Below are positions 61 to 21,878 of a DNA stretch of 21,878 nucleotides, one piece after another (position 1 is the first letter of the stretch; each line of letters starts with the position of its first letter). Under the pieces are notes generated by a model. That model did no database searches. It was not told the origin of the DNA and saw only the letters and a list, made by a program, of their open reading frames with translations. This DNA is from Prasinococcaceae sp. CCMP 1430 (lineage: Eukaryota; Prasinodermophyta; Palmophyllophyceae; Prasinococcales; Prasinococcaceae), in NCBI GenBank assembly GCA_013416795.1, contig RQSC01000016.1, forward strand, positions 257,559 to 279,436. Reading direction: 5' to 3'. A program made the position numbers and the translations under genes.

Positions 61-3000
61 ATGCCGGCCGAGGACGCCGTCAAGCGGCACGGAAAGCGCG
101 TGCTCAACGCAGCGCGCGAGAAGCGCCGCGGGGAGCGCTGGACGGTGAGCAACTGGCTCACCAAACAGGCCGAGAGTGACCCCAAGTTCAAGGTGCCCCT
201 CTTCCGCCTCGTCGATGTGCTCCCCAGGCTGCAGTCGAGCGCGTCGGTGCTGCAGCACACCAGGGAGTACATGTCCGAGCAGGGCGCCCCCGCGAAGCTC
301 AAGTTCATGCTCGACGCGGCCAGCACGAGCGTGGCGCGCATGGCAGGCGCGGAGACCATTGTCAATAAGAGCGTCGTCATCCCCATCGAGGAGATGGGCA
401 GGACCTTCATCGCCGGCCAGGACGCTACGACCGCCGCGCCCGCGCTGCGGAAGCTCTGGCAGTCGGGCGTGGGCTTCAGCGTCGACCTTCTTGGCGAGGC
501 CGTCGTGCGCAAGGAGGAGGCGGACGCGTCCCTGTCGCAGTACGCCAGCCTCATCGACCAGCTGCCCGACCTTGCGGCAGGCTGGGCGCCCAACCTGACG
601 CTCGAGAACGACCACCTGGGCATCGTGCCGCGCGCCAACGTGAGCGTGAAGCTATCCTCGATGCTCGAGACGCTCGACCCCGTGGCCACCGAGAAGTCCA
701 TCGCCGAGCTCAAGGCGCGCTTGCGACCGCTGCTCATCGAGGCCGGCAGGAAGGGCGTGCATGTCAACTTCGACATGGAGGAGCATAAATTGAAGGACCT
801 CACGCTCCGCATCGTGCGCGAGCTGTGTGAGGAGGTGGACTTCTCCGCGGGCTACTCGCATCAGGCGTACCTCCGCTCCACGGAGCGCGACGCGCAGGAC
901 ATGATCGACTGGGCGCGCGCCAGCGGGCGCATCATCCAGGCGCGCCTCGTCAAGGGTGCCTACTGGGACCACGAGACCATCCACGCGGAGCAGATGGGGT
1001 GGCCTACGCCGGTGTGGAGCCGCAAGGTGGAGACCGACGCCGCCTGGGAGCGCACCGCGTGGCGCATGCTCACGCAGTATCCTCGCGAGCCCGGCGAGGG
1101 CGGCGTGACGCTCGCGCTGGGCACGCACAACGCGCGCTCGATCGGATTCGCGCTCGCGGCGCTCGAGCAGCTTGAGCTGAAGGAGAACGCCATCGAGGTG
1201 CAGAACCTGCGCGGCATGGCCGGCGGCATCCGCGACGCCTGCGCGGCGCTGGGGCTGCGCACGCGAGAGTACGTTCCCATCGGCCAGGTGGTTCCCGGCA
1301 TGAGCTACCTCGTGCGCCGCCTGCTGGAGAACACCTCCAACCAGTCGTGGCTGCTGAACGCCGAAGGCGCGAACCGCGGCGCGGACGACTTGGCGCTCTT
1401 GGCGTCCCCGCACGCGGCCATCCCGGTCGCCAGTGAGTGCAGCCCTAGCCCGAATTCAGACCAGGCCATCTGGCACGAGCTCTCGGTGGCCGTCGAGGGT
1501 GTGGGCGATGGCAAGCCCTTCGTGAACGAGCCGTCGCGCGACTTCAGCGACGCCGCGCAGAGGGAGGGCCTAGCGGCGGCCATCGAGCGCCGCTCGGCGC
1601 AGTTGCTGAAGGATGGTCCACCCGCGCCGGCTGAAGCGAGCGCGGCCGATGCCGACGACGCCGTCGCGCGCGCGGTCGCCGCGGCGGCGGCGTGGGCCGC
1701 CGTGTCGCCGAGGGAGCGTGCGGCGATCGCCGTGCGCGTGGCTGCGATCATACGCGAGCGTCGGGACGACGTGACGGCGTGCATCATGCACGACACCGGC
1801 AAGGGCTGGGCAGACGCCGATGCCGAAACGGCCGAGGGAATCGATTTCCCGGAGTACTACGCTCGCGAGGCCGTGCAGCTCTGCGAGCCGCAGTCGCTGG
1901 GCAAGTTCGTGGGGGAGGAAAACACGCTCCTCCACCGGCCGCGCGGCGTTGCGGTGGTCATCGCACCGTGGAATTTCCCCTTCGCCATCCTGTGCGGCAT
2001 GACCGTCGCGGCGCTCGTCACGGGCAACCCTGTCATCATGAAGCCCGCCGAGCAGACGCCCGCCACCGCCGAGATGCTGCACTCCATCCTGCTCGAGGCT
2101 GGCGCACCGCCCAGCTGCGTGCAGCTGCTGCACGGCCGGGGCGAGGTCGTGGGCGAGGCGCTCACCTCCAACACGGACGTGGCGACCATCCTCTTCACTG
2201 GCTCGAAGGATGTGGGGCTGCACATCGCTCAGAAGGTGGCGGCGGTGGACGAGGGACTGAAGCAGTGCCGCAAGGTCATCGCTGAGATGGGCGGCAAGAA
2301 CGCCATCATCGTCGATGAGTCCGCCGACATGGACGAGGCCGTGCAGGGCGTGGTGCGCGCCGCTTTCGGCTTCCAAGGCCAAAAGTGCTCGGCGGCCTCG
2401 CGCGTGGTGGTGCACGAGGCCGTGTACGACGAGTTCCTGGAGCGCCTCGAGGGGGCCACGCGCGACCGTGTGGTGGGCGACCCGCGCGATCCTGCGACCG
2501 ACATCGGGCCCATGATCGACGCGGATGCGCGCGCCAAGAGCTTGGGCCATGTTGCCGACGCTATGGCAGCATGCCAGGCCTCAGGCCACGACGAGGCTGC
2601 CGAAAACGGCGCCAGGCTCGTCTTCGCGGGCGTGGCGCCCACGCCGGGCGCCGAACTCATGCCCGGGAGGCACTACGTGCCCCCGCACATCTTCGCCGTC
2701 AACGGGGACTCTCCAGTTGACCTGTGGCGCTCGGAGGTCTTTGGTCCCGTGCTCGCCGTCGCCAAGGCGCGCGAAATCGACCACGCCATCGATCTGGCCA
2801 ATGACTCGGACTACAAGCTGACGGGCGCGCTGTACTCGCGGACGCCGAGCCACATCGAGGCGGTGCGCAAGAAATTCAAGGTCGGCAACCTGTACATCAA
2901 CCGTGATCCCACGGGAGCCTTGGTGGGCAGGCAGCCTTTCGGGGGAGGAGGTATGAGTGGGGTGGGGCCGGAGAAGGCCGGCGGCAAGAATTATCTGCCG

Positions 3001-3072
3001 GCGCTCGTTGAGCCGTATGTAGTCTGCGAGAACACGCAGCGTAGGGGGTTCGCGCCCGGGATGGTCCAGTGA
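61..3072 (+). CDS. putA: Bifunctional proline dehydrogenase / delta-1-pyrroline-5-carboxylate dehydrogenase (PutA type), 5' end open
   Basis: This 1003-residue protein should oxidise proline to P5C with FAD and then glutamate semialdehyde to glutamate with NAD. The N-terminal half is a proline dehydrogenase barrel: VNFDMEEH begins near residue 237, RLVKGAYWD lies near 295-303, and the barrel closes with YLVRRLLEN. The C-terminal half is an aldehyde dehydrogenase with APWNFPF near 634, FTGS at 712-715, the general base Glu742 in EMGGKN and the nucleophile Cys776 in GQKCSA. The length matches minimal bacterial PutA proteins of about 1000 residues, which lack the DNA-binding N-terminus. The ATG at 61 is the first in frame, but the frame is open to base 1 and those 20 codons are Ala/Arg/Pro-rich, so an upstream start, perhaps with a mitochondrial presequence, is possible. 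The TGA is at 3070-3072 and no intron is apparent. In eukaryotes these two enzymes are normally separate, so the fusion suggests bacterial ancestry (inference). Confidence 0.93.
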   Translation: MPAEDAVKRHGKRVLNAAREKRRGERWTVSNWLTKQAESDPKFKVPLFRLVDVLPRLQSSASVLQHTREYMSEQGAPAKLKFMLDAASTSVARMAGAETIVNKSVVIPIEEMGRTFIAGQDATTAAPALRKLWQSGVGFSVDLLGEAVVRKEEADASLSQYASLIDQLPDLAAGWAPNLTLENDHLGIVPRANVSVKLSSMLETLDPVATEKSIAELKARLRPLLIEAGRKGVHVNFDMEEHKLKDLTLRIVRELCEEVDFSAGYSHQAYLRSTERDAQDMIDWARASGRIIQARLVKGAYWDHETIHAEQMGWPTPVWSRKVETDAAWERTAWRMLTQYPREPGEGGVTLALGTHNARSIGFALAALEQLELKENAIEVQNLRGMAGGIRDACAALGLRTREYVPIGQVVPGMSYLVRRLLENTSNQSWLLNAEGANRGADDLALLASPHAAIPVASECSPSPNSDQAIWHELSVAVEGVGDGKPFVNEPSRDFSDAAQREGLAAAIERRSAQLLKDGPPAPAEASAADADDAVARAVAAAAAWAAVSPRERAAIAVRVAAIIRERRDDVTACIMHDTGKGWADADAETAEGIDFPEYYAREAVQLCEPQSLGKFVGEENTLLHRPRGVAVVIAPWNFPFAILCGMTVAALVTGNPVIMKPAEQTPATAEMLHSILLEAGAPPSCVQLLHGRGEVVGEALTSNTDVATILFTGSKDVGLHIAQKVAAVDEGLKQCRKVIAEMGGKNAIIVDESADMDEAVQGVVRAAFGFQGQKCSAASRVVVHEAVYDEFLERLEGATRDRVVGDPRDPATDIGPMIDADARAKSLGHVADAMAACQASGHDEAAENGARLVFAGVAPTPGAELMPGRHYVPPHIFAVNGDSPVDLWRSEVFGPVLAVAKAREIDHAIDLANDSDYKLTGALYSRTPSHIEAVRKKFKVGNLYINRDPTGALVGRQPFGGGGMSGVGPEKAGGKNYLPALVEPYVVCENTQRRGFAPGMVQ

Positions 3073-7316: not shown

Positions 7317-9040
7317 CACACCGCCCCCCACGCCCGCGCGCATGGACTCCCCCCCGCGCGCACACACAAACGGAACCCATCTCACTTGCAGCGGGTCGCA
7401 AGAAGATTCGCATCGAGCGCATCACCGACGAGCGCAACCGCCAGGTCACCTTCACAAAGCGCAAGAACGGCCTCATGAAGAAGGCGATGGAGCTGTCCGT
7501 GCTTTGCGACTGCGACATTGCCCTGGTGATCTTCAACTCGAACTCGAAGCTCTTCCAGTACAGCTCGAGCGAAATAGAGACCATCCTCGAGAAGTACGCG
7601 CGCATGGAGGTCGAGCCGCACGAAAAGCGCAACAACCACGACCTCTTCAACCAGCACTTCAGGGGGCAGATTGCTGAGGACCGCAAGGAGGCGCAGCGGG
7701 CGGGCAAGGCGGTGGATGCCGCCACTGGCCACCTTCCGGAGTCACACCCGAAGGTGCTCAAGAGTGACCTCGCCCTTCTGAAGCAGAAAGGCGCAGCGGG
7801 CGCTAAGGGCGCGGCATCGGCGGGTGGCGCCACGAAGGATGTGAAGCTGGAGGCGAGCAACGCGGCCCCGGAGGACGACAAGGCCAAGGCGGTCGCGATG
7901 GCCGCGGCCAACAAAGCGAAGCGAAAGAAGCCGGGCTCCTCCGGGAAGGCCGCCGCGGGAGGAGAAGAGGCTGCGCCGCTGTCTGCGCAGCCCACGGACA
8001 TCGACGATGACCTCGATAATGACCGATTCATGGAGGAGCTCCGCAACGCGGGTGCCGCCGGCATGGAGGCGAATGGGCTCGGGCTCGGCCTGACCCCCAG
8101 AACAGAGCAGGCGTACCAGCAGCTCAACCGCGACTTCGAGGACATTCAGAACTCGGTTGGCGGCGCGCCTGGCATGGGGGGTCTCTTCGAAGGGTTTCTG
8201 GGTGGCGTCGAGGTGGTGAAGGGAAAGCGAACGCAGCTCACGAACGGCAAGGGCAAAGGTGCCGCCGCACCGGGCGGTGGCGCGGCCAATGGCGAATCTA
8301 ATAAGGGCGCGGCGCCAGGCGGCGGCGCCAAGGGCGGCGCCGCTGCCGCTGGCCTGCCCCCGGCGAAGGGCAACCCCGTCACCAAGCGGCGCTCAGCTTC
8401 GAAGGCCAAGGCGAAGAAAGATCTCTCCATCCTCGTTCCGGAGAACAAGTCCAAACAGATCGTGACCCTCGAGGGCGGTGCGCCCACGGGCCGAGTAAAG
8501 GACGCGGCGGCGAGCTCGGGGCTGGGTCCGGGCATCACGCCAGGCAGGGGGGACATCGGAAGCGCCAAGACAGGGCTGACGCCTACCGGCATCTCCCCGC
8601 CGAACATGCTGAAAGAGCTTGGCCACTCACAGGGACTCGTTGGCGTGCTGCCCAGCCCAAGTGGCCTCGGGGCTCTAGCGGCGCTCTCGCCGCCCGGCTC
8701 GGGCGGCGGGAGCTTGCTGGCGCAGGGCATGCTGACAAGTGGCATAAACCTCGCAACGCCTCTGGGCGTCGCGTCGTTGGACTGGCCATCGCCGCGGGCG
8801 CTCGGGGACTCGACGCGGATAACAGAGACAAGCGGCGGGGGCACGGAGGCTGGGCAGTCGAAACCTAGCAACGCGAAAGACCCTGACGGCGATACCAAGA
8901 CAAACGCGGTGCAGGCCAACGCGAACGGCTCGGCGGCGCGGTCCGCTGCAGCGGACGAGAAGGCAGGGGCGAAGCGGGGCGCGGACGAATCTGGCGCCGC
9001 GCCCGGCAGCAAGCGCACTCGATCGTCGGCAAAGACGTGA
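7009..9040 (+). CDS. MEF2-like (type II) MADS-box transcription factor, two exons
   Basis: The model joins 7009-7090 to 7392-9040, giving 576 residues. The MADS domain starts at Gly29 ([10 protein letters not shown]), continues with [19 protein letters not shown] and [16 protein letters not shown], and is followed by a MEF2-like extension ([11 protein letters not shown]). These are hallmarks of the MEF2 rather than SRF class: dimeric nuclear factors that bind AT-rich CArG/MEF2 sites. The donor CAACA/GTGCGT and acceptor CTTGCAG rebuild Thr28 and keep frame with the MADS start. The ATG has a strong context (GGCCATGG). Most MEF2 proteins begin with the MADS box itself, so the 28-residue leader is unusual. 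The remaining 450 residues are Ala/Gly/Lys-rich and probably disordered, ending in a basic stretch ([11 protein letters not shown]). TGA at 9038-9040 is followed at once by TAG. The gene is convergent with SAS10, 97 bases away. Confidence 0.92.
7091..7391 (+). other. Intron 1 of the MADS-box gene, with a C30 tract
   Basis: This 301-base intron runs from GTGCGT to TTGCAG and splits codon 28 after its first base, immediately before the MADS domain. Thirty consecutive C residues at 7283-7312, flanked by CT/TCC, form an extreme pyrimidine tract 79 bases before the acceptor. The boundary is inferred from MADS-box conservation and frame, not from transcript data. Confidence 0.8.
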
Positions 9041-11789: not shown

Positions 11790-12932
11790 ATGCCTCGGCC
11801 GACGCCGGCGCGCGCCGCGTCGGAGTCGGCGTCGTCGGCGTGGAACTTAAAGGAAAAGAGGGGAAGGCTCAAGCGCGAGTGCTCCCGGGTCGCCGCGTTG
11901 CGCGACGCGCACGCCGACAGCCCGCGGAGCATGCCGCTCAAGAAGCGACGGAAAAGGCCCGCTGCGGGGGGAGGGGGGCGACCCAAGACCAATGGATCCT
12001 GCGAGCCGCAGCTGCTACCGCCGCTCGGTGGGCACATCAAGGTATACTGGGACGGTGAGAGTGCGTGGTACGAGGGCATCGTCGTGGAAATCAAAGAGAG
12101 CTCTGACCCCAGCACGAGCACATACACCGTCTTCTACCCTGTTGACGAGGTGACGACTGAGCATGCGCCCACTGAGCTCTGGCAGCTCGATCGCAATCGA
12201 GACTCCGTGCAAGGGGCGAACGGCAAGCGTCTGATAGGGACATCTCCAGCGCCGGTTCCCTCGTCGGCGCCCGCTGTCGAGGAGACCGATGTCAACGATG
12301 AGATCCCACCAATGGCGGAGCCCGCGCCCGAGGCTCCGGCAGCTGTCAAGGTGCACGGGAAAAGAGGTGGCCGAAAGCCACGGGTGCGGTCACCGAAGGC
12401 CAAGCAAGCACGCCCCGTGGAGCCTGCGCCCGCTGAGCAAGCGTTGGGGCGACGACCTTCGAGGAGGAAACTTCCTGCGCCGACACCATCGGCCCCGCCG
12501 CCGCCCGGCCGCGGCCGATCACGGAAGGGCGCGCGCGCGCAAGCGGAGGAGCCTGCAGAGCCTGCCCCCCCCCTGCCGCCGCTGCCGCACGTTGGCACCA
12601 CCGTGCGCGTTCACTGGGCCGGCGATGGCGAGTGGTACACCGGCAACGTTGTGTCTGCGGACCATAGCACCGCGCAATACCTGGTGCACTACCCTGAAGA
12701 CGACATGACCGTCGCGCACGACGCCAGCGAGCCATGGGAGGTCCTCGCCGACGGCGCGCGGCGCGAGCATGTGCACATTCGCCCCCCGAACATGAGCGAG
12801 CTGCCTGCGGGCCCGCTAGGCCATCTCATGCAGCTCGGATTCGAGAGGGGAGCCGCACAGCAGGCCCTTGACCTTCACCAGGGCGACGCGGTCGCAGCCA
12901 TCGACACGCTCTTTGCCTCGGCGCCCAGGTAG
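11790..12932 (+). CDS. Double Tudor-like / UBA-domain protein
   Basis: The 380-residue frame has two related Tudor/Agenet-like folds and a C-terminal UBA. Tudor 1 (about 80-134) contains IKVYWDGESAWYEGIV and YTVFYPVDE; Tudor 2 (about 268-320) contains VRVHWAGDGEWYTGNVV and YLVHYPEDD, both ending with an E-L/P-W motif. The UBA (about 340-377) has HLMQLGFERGAAQQALDLHQ. Between them lies a Pro/Lys/Arg-rich linker with AT-hook-like GRKPR and several basic clusters. Tudor folds of this type usually bind methylated lysine or arginine, and UBA binds ubiquitin, so a chromatin role linked to ubiquitin signals is an inference. The start is uncertain: ATG 11790 is the first after the gap, while ATG 11931 (MPLKKRRKR, an immediate nuclear-localisation-like cluster) is also good. 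The frame upstream of 11790 is open to the gap. TAG at 12930-12932. Confidence 0.8.
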   Translation: MPRPTPARAASESASSAWNLKEKRGRLKRECSRVAALRDAHADSPRSMPLKKRRKRPAAGGGGRPKTNGSCEPQLLPPLGGHIKVYWDGESAWYEGIVVEIKESSDPSTSTYTVFYPVDEVTTEHAPTELWQLDRNRDSVQGANGKRLIGTSPAPVPSSAPAVEETDVNDEIPPMAEPAPEAPAAVKVHGKRGGRKPRVRSPKAKQARPVEPAPAEQALGRRPSRRKLPAPTPSAPPPPGRGRSRKGARAQAEEPAEPAPPLPPLPHVGTTVRVHWAGDGEWYTGNVVSADHSTAQYLVHYPEDDMTVAHDASEPWEVLADGARREHVHIRPPNMSELPAGPLGHLMQLGFERGAAQQALDLHQGDAVAAIDTLFASAPR

Positions 12933-13236
12933 TGTGGGGGCCGCCCGCCCGCCGCGCGCACACCCCAACCTGTACACGTACCATCCCTTGTGTGTAGCGG
13001 CACCCCCCAGGCGCGCACGCGCCGGGCCCCTCGCCACTCCCCCAGCGCGCGTAGCATGTGCTGCACACGGGCACTCCCGCGAGCGCACACGCGTGCTCGC
13101 CCCTGTCCATGCGTCGGTGCCTGGGGCTGCCCGCATGGACCCCTTGGGTGGGAGCCCTCTGCATATCAAAACCCATGTGAGTGGCTGCGGCACGCCACAC
13201 ACCGCGCGCGGAGCGCAGCGCGGCACTGCCGCGGCC
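12933..13236. other. Intergenic region between Tudor-UBA and C2H2 genes
   Basis: About 300 bases lie between two genes on the same strand. A reading frame continues upstream of the C2H2 gene through this region into the end of the Tudor-UBA gene, with in-frame ATGs at 12868 and 13138. Its encoded residues are compositionally random, and the stronger start is at 13237. I see no other feature. Confidence 0.5.
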
Positions 13237-14121
13237 ATGGCGGGGGAGGCTGGAGAGGTCGGCGGCACTGGCGCTCCCCGGCCAAGGTGGATCCTCGGGC
13301 GAGCGGTGGTGGTCGCGCTTGTCGCTGCAGCTGCACGCACGCGTGCCGCCAGCGCGGCGCCCGCCGATGCGCCTGCGGTCGCGCCAGGCGTGGTGGCTGC
13401 TGCTGCGGGCGTGCCGTGCAGCCGCAGCCGAGCGCGCCAGGCGCGCGCGATCGCGTCCGAGTTCGTGGTCGCGCCTGCGCTTGCGCTTGGCTACGAGCTC
13501 CCCCCCGCGTGTGCCCTGGCACCTTCGAACGACGTGTACGCCGTGCAGGAGGCTGGCAAGCGCATGCGGCGACGCGGGCAGTGGCAGTGCGCACACTGCG
13601 GCAAGCTCTTCCGCACGGAAGAGCACCTGGACAAGCACTTGGGCAATCGTCACTCTGATCTGATACCTGAGGGGGCACACGTGTGCCTGGCGGACCTGTG
13701 CGACGTGTTGCACTGCGACGCGGTCGAGGTGGGCGCGGAGGCCATGCTGCGCGCCCCGTGCCGCGAGTCGGACATGCAGCGTGCGCGCCACGCCTGCGAG
13801 GCCCATGCGCACCAGTGCTATCCGGCGGGCGCGCCGCCGCCGCTCGGTCGCGCATTCAACGAGCGCTTCTGCGCACTGCTCACGTGCGAGCGCCGGCATG
13901 AGGCAGCCAGCTTGCTGCGCCCGCACGGGACGAGCGCCGTACGCGTGTGGTGGTGGATCGGTCTGGTGCTCGCCATCATCGCCAATGTCGCTCTGCTGGG
14001 CACACTCACATACAGGAAAATGCAGCTTGCCACGCGCAGGGACCTGCGGCGCGTCGCAAAGGGCAGCCTGCTCGATCGCGTGGCGCAGGCTTTTCTCGGG
14101 AAGAAGAAGAAGGTCTACTGA
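13237..14121 (+). CDS. Predicted ER type I membrane protein with luminal C2H2 zinc finger and KKXX tail
   Basis: From the ATG at 13237 (GCGGCCATGG, an ideal Kozak context) the product is 294 residues. It starts with a signal-peptide-like segment: a short N-region with Arg-Pro-Arg, then ILGRAVVVALVAAAA and an A-S-A/A-P cleavage-like site. A classical C2H2 finger follows (CAHCGKLFRTEEHLDKHL: Cys118, Cys121, His134, His139). Then comes a Cys-rich region with at least eight cysteines, and one transmembrane helix at about 237-259 (WWWIGLVLAIIANVALLG). The cytosolic tail of about 35 residues ends in Lys-Lys-Val-Tyr, the dilysine KKXX signal for COPI retrieval to the ER. The finger would thus face the lumen, unlike DNA-binding C2H2 proteins. 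I believe related signal-peptide/C2H2/TM proteins exist in plants and protists, but I do not recall a characterised function. Earlier in-frame ATGs at 12868 and 13138 would bury the signal peptide. Confidence 0.78.
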   Translation: MAGEAGEVGGTGAPRPRWILGRAVVVALVAAAARTRAASAAPADAPAVAPGVVAAAAGVPCSRSRARQARAIASEFVVAPALALGYELPPACALAPSNDVYAVQEAGKRMRRRGQWQCAHCGKLFRTEEHLDKHLGNRHSDLIPEGAHVCLADLCDVLHCDAVEVGAEAMLRAPCRESDMQRARHACEAHAHQCYPAGAPPPLGRAFNERFCALLTCERRHEAASLLRPHGTSAVRVWWWIGLVLAIIANVALLGTLTYRKMQLATRRDLRRVAKGSLLDRVAQAFLGKKKKVY

Positions 14122-14536
14122 TCAGCCAGGCGTACCCTGGCAGCGCGTCCCCCGCGGCGCCCTTGTACAATAGTCATTCGCACGACGCACACGGCAGCGA
14201 GCTGCGCGCACGGCTGCGGTGCAGCGTGCGGTGAGGCCACGTGGGGTGCGCCGACTGCGCCTCTCTCCGGCGCGCCGTGCGCGCCGCGCGGACCAGGCCG
14301 CCTGCCTCGAGCGGGCGCAGGGAGGCGGACGTCGGCGCCGTCCTCGCAGGCTCGCAGCGCTCGAGCGTGAGGTTAGGGTACGTTCAGAGTATTTAGGGTC
14401 AAATTACAATTAGGGTGTGGACGTGAGCCGAGGATCGAGGGGGGTACCGATTGCCCCGGCGGTGGCAGACGAGCGCGCACAGGCGGGCGTGTGGGGTGGC
14501 TGTCTCGTGCCCGCCGCGGCGTGGGCGGCGAGGTCC
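14122..14536. other. Intergenic region / leader of the acid phosphatase gene, with three TTAGGG words
   Basis: These 415 bases contain no ATG on the plus strand. TTAGGG occurs at 14373-14378, 14393-14398 and 14410-14415, inside a locally AT-rich patch (14371-14417) in otherwise GC-rich DNA. The patch could be a promoter element, an intron end (ATTACAATTAG would serve as an acceptor) or a trace of telomere-like sequence. No gene is seen here. Confidence 0.5.
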
Positions 14537-15892
14537 ATGCAGCGCCACGCGCACGCGCACGCCTGCGCGCAGCGCAAGCACAGGCCGGGCCCCTTGTCCG
14601 CGCCGCTGCTGGGGGGCGCGCCCGCGGCGGACGCCTCCGCTGCGGGATACGCCTCGAGTGACCCGTACTGCGTCGCGCAAGCGCCACGCGGCGCGGGCGC
14701 ACCGCCGCCGTCGGTCGCACGCACCGGCACGGCGGCCGGTATCGTACGTCGCGCAGGGGAGCCCGCCCCCCGATACGCACTCGCGCGCGCGGCGCTCGTC
14801 GCGCGGCATGGGGATCGCTCTCCGCTCACGGTCTACGACGGTGACGGCTACGACGCCGCGTGGGCGAGCCCGATGTGCCCACGCGCAGACACGCCCGCTG
14901 GCGCGGGTGAGGGTCAGGGTAGCGGCGTGTGCTACCCAGGCCAGCTCACCGCGCGCGGCGCTGCGCAACTGCGGCGCAACGGGGAGGCGCTGCGCGCTCG
15001 CTTCGGCCGAGCGCCCGCCGTCGAGGTGCACTGCACACACATTCCGCGCACGCGCGACAGCGCGCATGCCCTGCTCGCGGGCCTACTCGGCGACACGCGC
15101 GCAGCAGAAGTCGAGGTGCAAGCGCAGCCGGAGGGGCCGCTCACGTGGCTCTATCCCAATCGCAAGCACTGCGCGGCGCTCGGGAGCACCCCCGCCGCCC
15201 ACGCCCTCGGCGAGGCCGCCGCGGACGCGGCAGGCTACGAGCCGGTCTCGCACTGGGAGCTCGGCGAGCACATGGGGAGCTACGACGACAGACGCGTGAG
15301 GCTCTTCGACCTGTATGCGACGCGGCGCTGCCACCAGCCCGCGGCGCAGAGCTCCGGCTTCCCCTGCGGCGGCGAGTGCGGCTTTGGCCAGCTCAAGCGG
15401 GCGGCGACCGCTGCCGAGGTCGCGCCGTTCCTGCAGGCTCGCGCGAGCGGCGAGGCAGCGATGGCGATGCAGGTGGGCCCGCTCATGCACGGTCTCACCA
15501 CCTTCCTCGCGGGCGAGCACAGAGATCCGTCCGTGGAGCTGCTCTACTTTTCCGGGCACGATACCACCCTAATGCCGCTGCTCGTCGCGCTGGGCGTGTG
15601 GGAAGCGGAGGGGGTCGACGGCGTGTGGCCGCCATACGCGAGCACCGTGCTCTTCTCAGTGTGGCGCGCCGAGAGTAGCAGCAGCACCGAGGGTGTGCGC
15701 GCGCCGGTGGCGCCGGAGGAGGTCGTGCTCGTGGAGTACAACGGCCGCGAGCTCGTTCTCCCCGCATGCGCGGAGCCGTGCACACCCACGGCGCTCCGCG
15801 AGGGGCTCGCTGGCCTGGCACTCACTGAGGAGGCGTGGCTGCAGCGCTGCAGTGATGCGAACGCTGCAAATGTCCACGCAAAGAGCGCGTGA
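14537..15892 (+). CDS. Histidine-type acid phosphatase (branch 2 histidine phosphatase)
   Basis: The 451-residue product carries the diagnostic RHGDRSP motif at 90-96, where His91 would be the phosphorylated nucleophile, and the proton-donor HD pair His341-Asp342 in FSGHDTTLMPLL. Between them is the family's conserved IPRTRDSAHALLAGLLG block. The arrangement and length fit eukaryotic acid phosphatases of the ACP6/PXYLP1/prostatic type, which hydrolyse phosphomonoesters in secretory or lysosomal compartments or mitochondria; the substrate cannot be told. Several Cys pairs would suit an exported protein, but no convincing signal peptide follows the ATG. The start is well supported because no ATG occurs between the upstream gene's stop and 14537. 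An in-frame open stretch runs back to a TAG at 14411, so a spliced upstream exon remains possible. TGA at 15890-15892. It is convergent with PUS1. Confidence 0.88.
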   Translation: MQRHAHAHACAQRKHRPGPLSAPLLGGAPAADASAAGYASSDPYCVAQAPRGAGAPPPSVARTGTAAGIVRRAGEPAPRYALARAALVARHGDRSPLTVYDGDGYDAAWASPMCPRADTPAGAGEGQGSGVCYPGQLTARGAAQLRRNGEALRARFGRAPAVEVHCTHIPRTRDSAHALLAGLLGDTRAAEVEVQAQPEGPLTWLYPNRKHCAALGSTPAAHALGEAAADAAGYEPVSHWELGEHMGSYDDRRVRLFDLYATRRCHQPAAQSSGFPCGGECGFGQLKRAATAAEVAPFLQARASGEAAMAMQVGPLMHGLTTFLAGEHRDPSVELLYFSGHDTTLMPLLVALGVWEAEGVDGVWPPYASTVLFSVWRAESSSSTEGVRAPVAPEEVVLVEYNGRELVLPACAEPCTPTALREGLAGLALTEEAWLQRCSDANAANVHAKSA

Positions 15893-20350: not shown

Positions 20351-21878
20351 CTACGTCGCGGCGACGCCGCGCTTCGCCTCGATCCACCTCGTGATGGCCG
20401 CCAGCTCGTAGCGTCGCGCCTCGACGGCGTCGGGGGGGTCCCTCTTGTGGGCGAACATGAGATCCAAGTGGTGCGCTCCGTTCGGCAGGACCACGGCCGT
20501 CACGTCGCGCGCGAGGCTCACATTCTTCGTCACGCCGCCGGCCGACCAGGGATCCAGCTCGCCGTTGCTGAACACGATGTTGGAGGCGCGGCTGAGGTCG
20601 CTCCCCCACCACGTCGTCGCCGCCCAGAGCGGCCGCGGCGTCACCCCCCACTGCGCCTGACACGACGCGAACGCCGCTGTCTGATTGTACGCGGACAGTG
20701 GGTAGAACATATCGGCCGCGGTGCCCTGCGTGAACGGCTGGTGCATCTCCGTGCACCACTGCCAATCCCAATTGCCGACACACGTGTCATCGCGGACGTC
20801 GGCGACGCTGGCGGCCGGCGCGTTGAAGAAGCAGCCCTCGCCTCCTGTGTTGTTGTAGTACACAGCGACGGCGGCGCGCAGCGCCTCGAAGAGGGGGGCG
20901 TCTTCGCCGGACGCGAGCGCCGGGTCGCGCAGCGGCTCGCACGCGGCTCGCACGGGCCACGCTGGCAGCAATGAGAGCCCGTGCATCAGGTAGGTCGACG
21001 GGTATGGGAAATTGCCCATGGCCAGCGTCGCCCAGGGAGCCTGCGCCCACGAGTTGAGCGCCGCGGCGGCCGCCGCGTCGCGCAGCGGCGCGCATGTGCG
21101 GAAGGCCTCCGCCAGGAGCGCGCGCCCCGCGGCGGTCTGACCCGCCTTGAGGATGCGCCGAAAGGCTTCCTTGGCGTTCGCCGCGCACGACGGCGCGGCG
21201 CCACCGGCAGCCTGCGCGTCGCGCGTCACCACCCTCATGAAGCCGTCGGCGTCGTACGCCGGCGTCAGCCCGAAGAAGCTCCAGATGGGCGCGCTCGCGC
21301 TTATGACGCCGTCCACCAAGTGCGGGAACTTCAAGCGAAACCACGCTGCCATCATGCCGCCGTAAGACCCGCCGAAGCCCACCACCGGCGTCACGCCGCG
21401 CCTTGCGCCTGGCAGCACGCTGTCCAGGCTCATAAGCACCGTCGCAAAGTCCGCCAGCGCCTGGTCGGTGGTGAGGTAGTTCAGGCACGACGGGTTGCGC
21501 GGCAGCGTGCCATTGGGCTCGGCGGGCGGCACCGTGCTCTCGCCGTAGTACCTGTGCTCCACGAACAGCAGCGCCGCACCCAGCCGGTCTGCGTTCTCCC
21601 ACATGAGGCCCGTGTGGTTGACGTAGAGCTCAACGTTGTCCTCATTGCCGAAGTAGAACAGCACGGGCCGCTGCGCGGGCGGCAGCGGCGACGCCTTCCA
21701 GCTCTTGACGCACAGGAAGTACCGCTGCCGAAAGCGGGGGGCCAGCGCGCCGCCCGCGGGCGGCGCGAACCCGAAGTGGTCGGTCGTCTGCGCGAACCAG
21801 CGCTCCTCGCACGACGACACATCTGCCAGCTGGTGCGCGGGCGCGCGCGGCGGCGCTCCGCCGCCCGCCGCGGCGAGC
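20351..21878 (-). CDS. Serine carboxypeptidase S28 family (Pro-X carboxypeptidase / DPP2 type), N-terminus beyond the window
   Basis: The frame runs from the right edge of the window to a TAG at 20353-20351, about 508 codons. Mature S28 enzymes begin close to the QTTDHF motif, seen here as WFAQTTDHFGF. They are lysosomal or secreted alpha/beta-hydrolases that cleave next to proline. The catalytic triad is complete: Ser in GFGGSYGG (codon 21367-21365), Asp in NGELDPW (codon 20554-20552) and His in NGAHHLDL (20473-20468). FVEHRYYGES and the APIWSFFGL segment are further family marks, and several N-X-S/T sites (NHT, NGT, NNT, NQT, NVS) fit a glycosylated secretory protein. A nominal GTG start at 21820 is not real; the open frame upstream has no ATG, so the signal peptide lies outside the window. 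Confidence 0.93.
   Translation of the reverse strand, partial: LAAAGGGAPPRAPAHQLADVSSCEERWFAQTTDHFGFAPPAGGALAPRFRQRYFLCVKSWKASPLPPAQRPVLFYFGNEDNVELYVNHTGLMWENADRLGAALLFVEHRYYGESTVPPAEPNGTLPRNPSCLNYLTTDQALADFATVLMSLDSVLPGARRGVTPVVGFGGSYGGMMAAWFRLKFPHLVDGVISASAPIWSFFGLTPAYDADGFMRVVTRDAQAAGGAAPSCAANAKEAFRRILKAGQTAAGRALLAEAFRTCAPLRDAAAAAALNSWAQAPWATLAMGNFPYPSTYLMHGLSLLPAWPVRAACEPLRDPALASGEDAPLFEALRAAVAVYYNNTGGEGCFFNAPAASVADVRDDTCVGNWDWQWCTEMHQPFTQGTAADMFYPLSAYNQTAAFASCQAQWGVTPRPLWAATTWWGSDLSRASNIVFSNGELDPWSAGGVTKNVSLARDVTAVVLPNGAHHLDLMFAHKRDPPDAVEARRYELAAITRWIEAKRGVAAT

Follow-up and report, generated by a model that had tools for sequence, protein, structure and literature searches.

A C2H2 zinc finger with a predicted luminal position in a dilysine-tailed, single-pass membrane protein of a prasinodermophyte alga

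The window, by which we mean the whole stretch of 21,878 nucleotides that was analysed, has a GC content of about 70% and contains, exactly where the initial annotation had placed it, an intact open reading frame for a protein of 294 amino acids (P0001, Table 1), running from an ATG to a TGA with no internal stop. The 24.5-Mb genome holds a single copy of it and no paralogue. In the same genome, an exon of the RuBisCO small subunit lies on DNA of 67% GC outside Ns, which is hence nuclear-like. Upstream of P0001, an open frame at 11790-12932 (+) codes for a protein that ends in a UBA-like domain and also has Tudor/Agenet-like segments, every one of them scoring below the Pfam cut-offs, while directly downstream lies a gene for a Branch-2 histidine acid phosphatase (14417-15892, +), a family that is usually secretory, as is that of the S28 serine carboxypeptidase encoded farther along (20351-21820, -). 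Between the finger gene and the phosphatase gene, positions 14365-14415 consist of degenerate TTTAGGG-like repeats (GTTAGGG, TTTAGGG, ATTAGGG); true TTTAGGG arrays are found on several contigs of the genome, and together with the RuBisCO exon and the GC content they suit a green picoalga.

Table 1 Features of the P0001 locus, in coordinates of the window
Feature	Position	Strand	Basis or remark
Open reading frame P0001, 294 aa	13237..14121	+	Intact, single-exon as read; coding bias clear from about 13417
Predicted signal peptide, residues 1-37 (second candidate cleavage site after residue 40)	13237..13347	+	Weight matrix, hydropathy; codon bias gives no support
C2H2 zinc finger, residues 116-139	13582..13653	+	Canonical pattern; sub-threshold Pfam zf-C2H2
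Eight-cysteine block, residues 150-217	13684..13887	+	Predicted helical (low-confidence model); no family model
Transmembrane helix, residues 237-259	13945..14013	+	Highest peak on the KD and biological scales; charge bias follows the positive-inside rule
Basic tail (+10), predicted cytosolic	14014..14118	+	Charge count
C-terminal KKVY, predicted dilysine COPI-type signal	14107..14118	+	Position; shuffles

Codon usage, scored with the neighbouring genes of the window as training set, becomes positive in the frame of P0001 at about 13357 and is clearly positive beyond 13417, and by the same statistics the segment 13237-13356 is indistinguishable from the flanking intergenic DNA. The ATG at 13237 stands in a good start context (GCGGCCATGGC); the sole other in-frame ATG within 12933-13560, at 13135, lies upstream in the intergenic gap and would bury the hydrophobic core about 34 residues deeper; and the first in-frame Met after it comes at residue 109. 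For these reasons 13237 is, on the sequence, the natural start, with an N-terminus that is a predicted one. Since the codon bias of the gene does not extend into the signal-peptide region, and Ala-rich frames are common in DNA of 70% GC, the true start may lie elsewhere, or there may be a spliced 5' exon or 5' intron. The start is the weakest element of the gene model and, because the codon signature is clear only farther downstream, the predicted signal peptide rests on its hydropathy and its cleavage score. The von Heijne eukaryotic weight matrix, with a usual cut-off of 3.5, gives a score of 6.93 for cleavage between RTRA and AS (5.3 at the second site), higher than for the cytosolic neighbours tested in the window, and the 12-residue KD peak of the N-terminus reaches 2.45. 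When this Ala-rich N-terminus was shuffled, 2% of the shuffles equalled both score and hydrophobicity.

The zinc finger, W116-x-C118-x2-C121-x3-F-x5-L-x2-H134-x4-H139, displays the full canonical pattern, which none of 20,000 shuffled versions of the protein reproduced (98 of them had the loose Cys/His spacing). C2H2 fingers are mostly nuclear, and DNA-binding transcription factors of this type would be expected to pass the curated zf-C2H2 cut-off in Pfam, usually with several fingers, whereas P0001 has one, which scores 17.2 bits against a cut-off of 25.2. The matches of the protein among PDB sequences are ordinary C2H2 fingers (best E 0.022). Its best Pfam match is ARS2/SERRATE (PF04959), a nuclear RNA-processing factor that shares with P0001 the finger match only; we rejected this assignment since the score of 21.7 bits lies below the cut-off of 30 and the true ARS2/SERRATE gene of the genome is found on another contig, C72 (84.9 bits). 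At least one other open frame in the genome exceeds the Pfam C2H2 cut-off. In Prasinoderma coloniale, which has a genome of 25.3 Mb with 69.8% GC, the C2H2 transcription factors are reported to have been lost (PMC7455551).

Behind the finger, eight cysteines are spaced as C150-x4-C155-x4-C160-x14-C175-x11-C187-x6-C194-x17-C212-x4-C217. We found no model or family for this block in Pfam, NCBIfam or the PDB, which leaves standing the earlier suggestion of a possibly undescribed domain as far as these collections go, although a protein of such a layout is known in plants, as discussed below. Single-sequence structure models were of low confidence, with a pLDDT of 52.5 over the full length and of 63.7 over residues 105-232. 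Foldseek returned no match with E < 0.001 for the P0001 model, and the best VIA-align hit (Z 5.9, rmsd 3.0, 83 residues aligned) was a designed helical protein, one of several helical bundles with nearly equal scores; with no Foldseek match and near-tied top hits, we dropped a fold assignment for the block. Searches for relatives in viral and prokaryotic collections, by exact 8-mers of the finger and the cysteine block and by two probe alignments (A1 and A2), gave none, and a DNA pattern for CLADLC..LHCD yielded nothing confirmed. The additional rows of A1 and A2 were partly modelled on plant proteins and partly improvised, and served as search probes only, so that their identities to P0001 are no evidence. 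Luminal cysteines tend to form disulfides, and eight of them in an oxidising lumen suit structural disulfides at least as well as the zinc or redox sensing proposed by the initial annotation, which is a possible role for P0001.

The segment at residues 237-259 is the highest hydropathy peak of the protein (KD19 2.09), and the net charge rises from +1 over the preceding 15 residues to +5 over the following 15. A signal peptide followed by a stop-transfer helix and a basic tail gives type I topology, and a KKXX sequence on a cytosolic tail binds coatomer. The C-terminus of P0001 reads KKKKVY and thus carries lysines at -3 and -4, the KKXX arrangement of type I ER proteins retrieved by COPI, on a tail whose cytosolic side is predicted; a C-terminal KKXX arose in 21 of 20,000 shuffles. 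All five parts named by the initial annotation, that is signal peptide, C2H2 finger, Cys-rich block, single transmembrane helix and terminal Lys-Lys-Val-Tyr, are found, the first of them as a prediction in a stretch free of codon bias. Their presence in the right order, together with the charge bias expected of a cytosolic tail, favours a type I topology. We put the probability of this topology at about two in three. The best-supported model makes P0001 an early-secretory membrane protein (ER and cis-Golgi), with finger and cysteine block predicted to be luminal and with predicted retrieval by COPI.

It could also be that the topology is the same and that the lysines do not retain the protein, which would then reside in the Golgi, in the plasma membrane or at the cell surface. 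A tail that is basic throughout and ends in four lysines could carry KKXX incidentally, and AT2G29660, an Arabidopsis protein considered below, has been catalogued as GPI-anchored (PMC6726743); given how seldom the exact position arises from this composition by chance, we regard such a location as unlikely. The Ala/Arg-rich N-terminus and the missing coding bias before about 13357-13417 would, in turn, suit a transit peptide that targets the plastid or the mitochondrion, or a start at Met109, either of which would place the finger outside the ER lumen. Against this stand the high signal-peptide score with its hydrophobic core and cleavage site, the KKXX tail, and a distance from N-terminus to finger that resembles that of AT5G63280 (115 versus 104 residues), which together make an organellar or cytosol-facing protein rather improbable.

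The closest parallel to P0001 that we found is this uncharacterised C2H2-type protein of Arabidopsis, AT5G63280, which is predicted to be secretory and has its finger at residues 105-128 and its transmembrane segment at 223-246 (PMC9237531). Compared by layout, not by alignment, with P0001 (116-139 and 237-259), the two agree to within about a dozen residues per interval: some 100 residues, one finger, some 95 residues and a single C-terminal transmembrane segment. We infer from this layout that they may belong together. In land-plant homologues there is presumably a CLADLCGALHCD motif that keeps this cysteine spacing of P0001, which we treat as a lead only. Between its finger and its transmembrane segment, AT5G63280 carries an N-glycosylation site identified by mass spectrometry, and it is nonetheless listed as a membrane-bound transcription factor with a predicted type II topology (PMC9237531). 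P0001, unlike AT5G63280, has no N-x-S/T sequon; glycosylation is not established as a defining trait of the family, and the absence of a sequon excludes neither an AT5G63280-like family nor the topology. N-glycosylation occurs in the lumen, so the stretch between finger and transmembrane segment of AT5G63280 is luminal despite the topology prediction, and its label as a transcription factor is doubtful. A second Arabidopsis protein listed as a membrane-bound transcription factor, AT2G29660, is hydrophobic near its N-terminus, at residues 9-29, and has its finger at 126-149 (PMC9237531). It resembles P0001 in having such a hydrophobic segment and a single finger, and differs in that no C-terminal transmembrane segment is listed and in its GPI entry. 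In the literature on luminal or membrane-anchored C2H2 proteins, these Arabidopsis lists were all that we found. The placing of the finger in the lumen of a COPI-retrieved type I protein, as first proposed for P0001, thus holds as the best reading of the sequence, backed indirectly by the layout and the N-glycan of AT5G63280, and its topology is a predicted one; the kind of protein is probably not new, as plants have one that is laid out in the same way and is uncharacterised.

That P0001 is a membrane-bound transcription factor, its finger part released through regulated intramembrane proteolysis, or retrotranslocated in the manner of NRF1, to act in the nucleus, would fit the nuclear habit of most C2H2 fingers, the listing of both Arabidopsis proteins and a degenerate S1P-like motif near the transmembrane segment of AT5G63280, and is nevertheless very unlikely in view of the lone finger, a cysteine block typical of oxidised domains, the signal peptide and C-terminal dilysine, and the N-glycan of AT5G63280.

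On the type I reading, the signal peptide would start translocation and then be removed, helix 237-259 would halt transfer, and the tail would remain cytosolic, where coatomer could bind the terminal KKVY and return the protein to the ER. About four disulfides might link the eight cysteines within a small helical domain. On less firm ground, the finger may hold a structural zinc ion in the lumen, and finger and cysteine block may bind proteins. Tentatively, and with the odds somewhat against it, this part of P0001 could be a protein-binding module, and P0001 a retrieved adaptor or a partner in the cargo handling or quality control of secretory proteins, not a transcription factor. Taken as a whole, the explanation of P0001 as a type I, retrieved adaptor or quality-control partner in the early secretory pathway has, in our judgement, an even chance of being right. 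Zinc in the early secretory lumen would have a precedent in ERp44, a chaperone in which zinc bound by a His cluster controls client retrieval (PMC6363758). The likeness to the model of P0001 lies in how it works only, both being luminal, zinc-binding and ER-retrieved; ERp44 has a thioredoxin fold, is soluble, and differs further in its His-cluster zinc site and in its retrieval through RDEL and the KDEL receptor. One could also speculate, and we think it quite improbable, that P0001 stands for a conserved family of ER membrane proteins in the green lineage, perhaps in eukaryotes more widely, in which a true C2H2 finger in the lumen acts as a switch that binds clients in response to zinc and is coupled to retrieval by COPI; its land-plant members, now listed as membrane-bound transcription factors, would then be proteins of the secretory pathway.

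If the type I topology is right, a type of finger that is usually taken to bind DNA has its place within the secretory pathway, and the functional class given to at least one Arabidopsis gene is probably wrong. With the N-glycan of the plant protein and the dilysine of the algal one, the location can be tested directly in a model plant, and the useful outcome is the suggestion that such proteins are secretory and misfiled as transcription factors.

Two further genes of the window deserve mention. The open frame at 7475-9040 (+) encodes a protein of MADS/SRF type. Since the frame covers no more than profile positions 20-48, an intron probably interrupts the MADS domain; if the species is P. coloniale, this would be a MADS gene that does not belong to the MIKC class reported as lost there. 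At 61-3072 (+) lies a fused proline dehydrogenase/aldehyde dehydrogenase with a PutA N-terminal domain, a PutA of bacterial type in a eukaryote, possibly acquired from bacteria.
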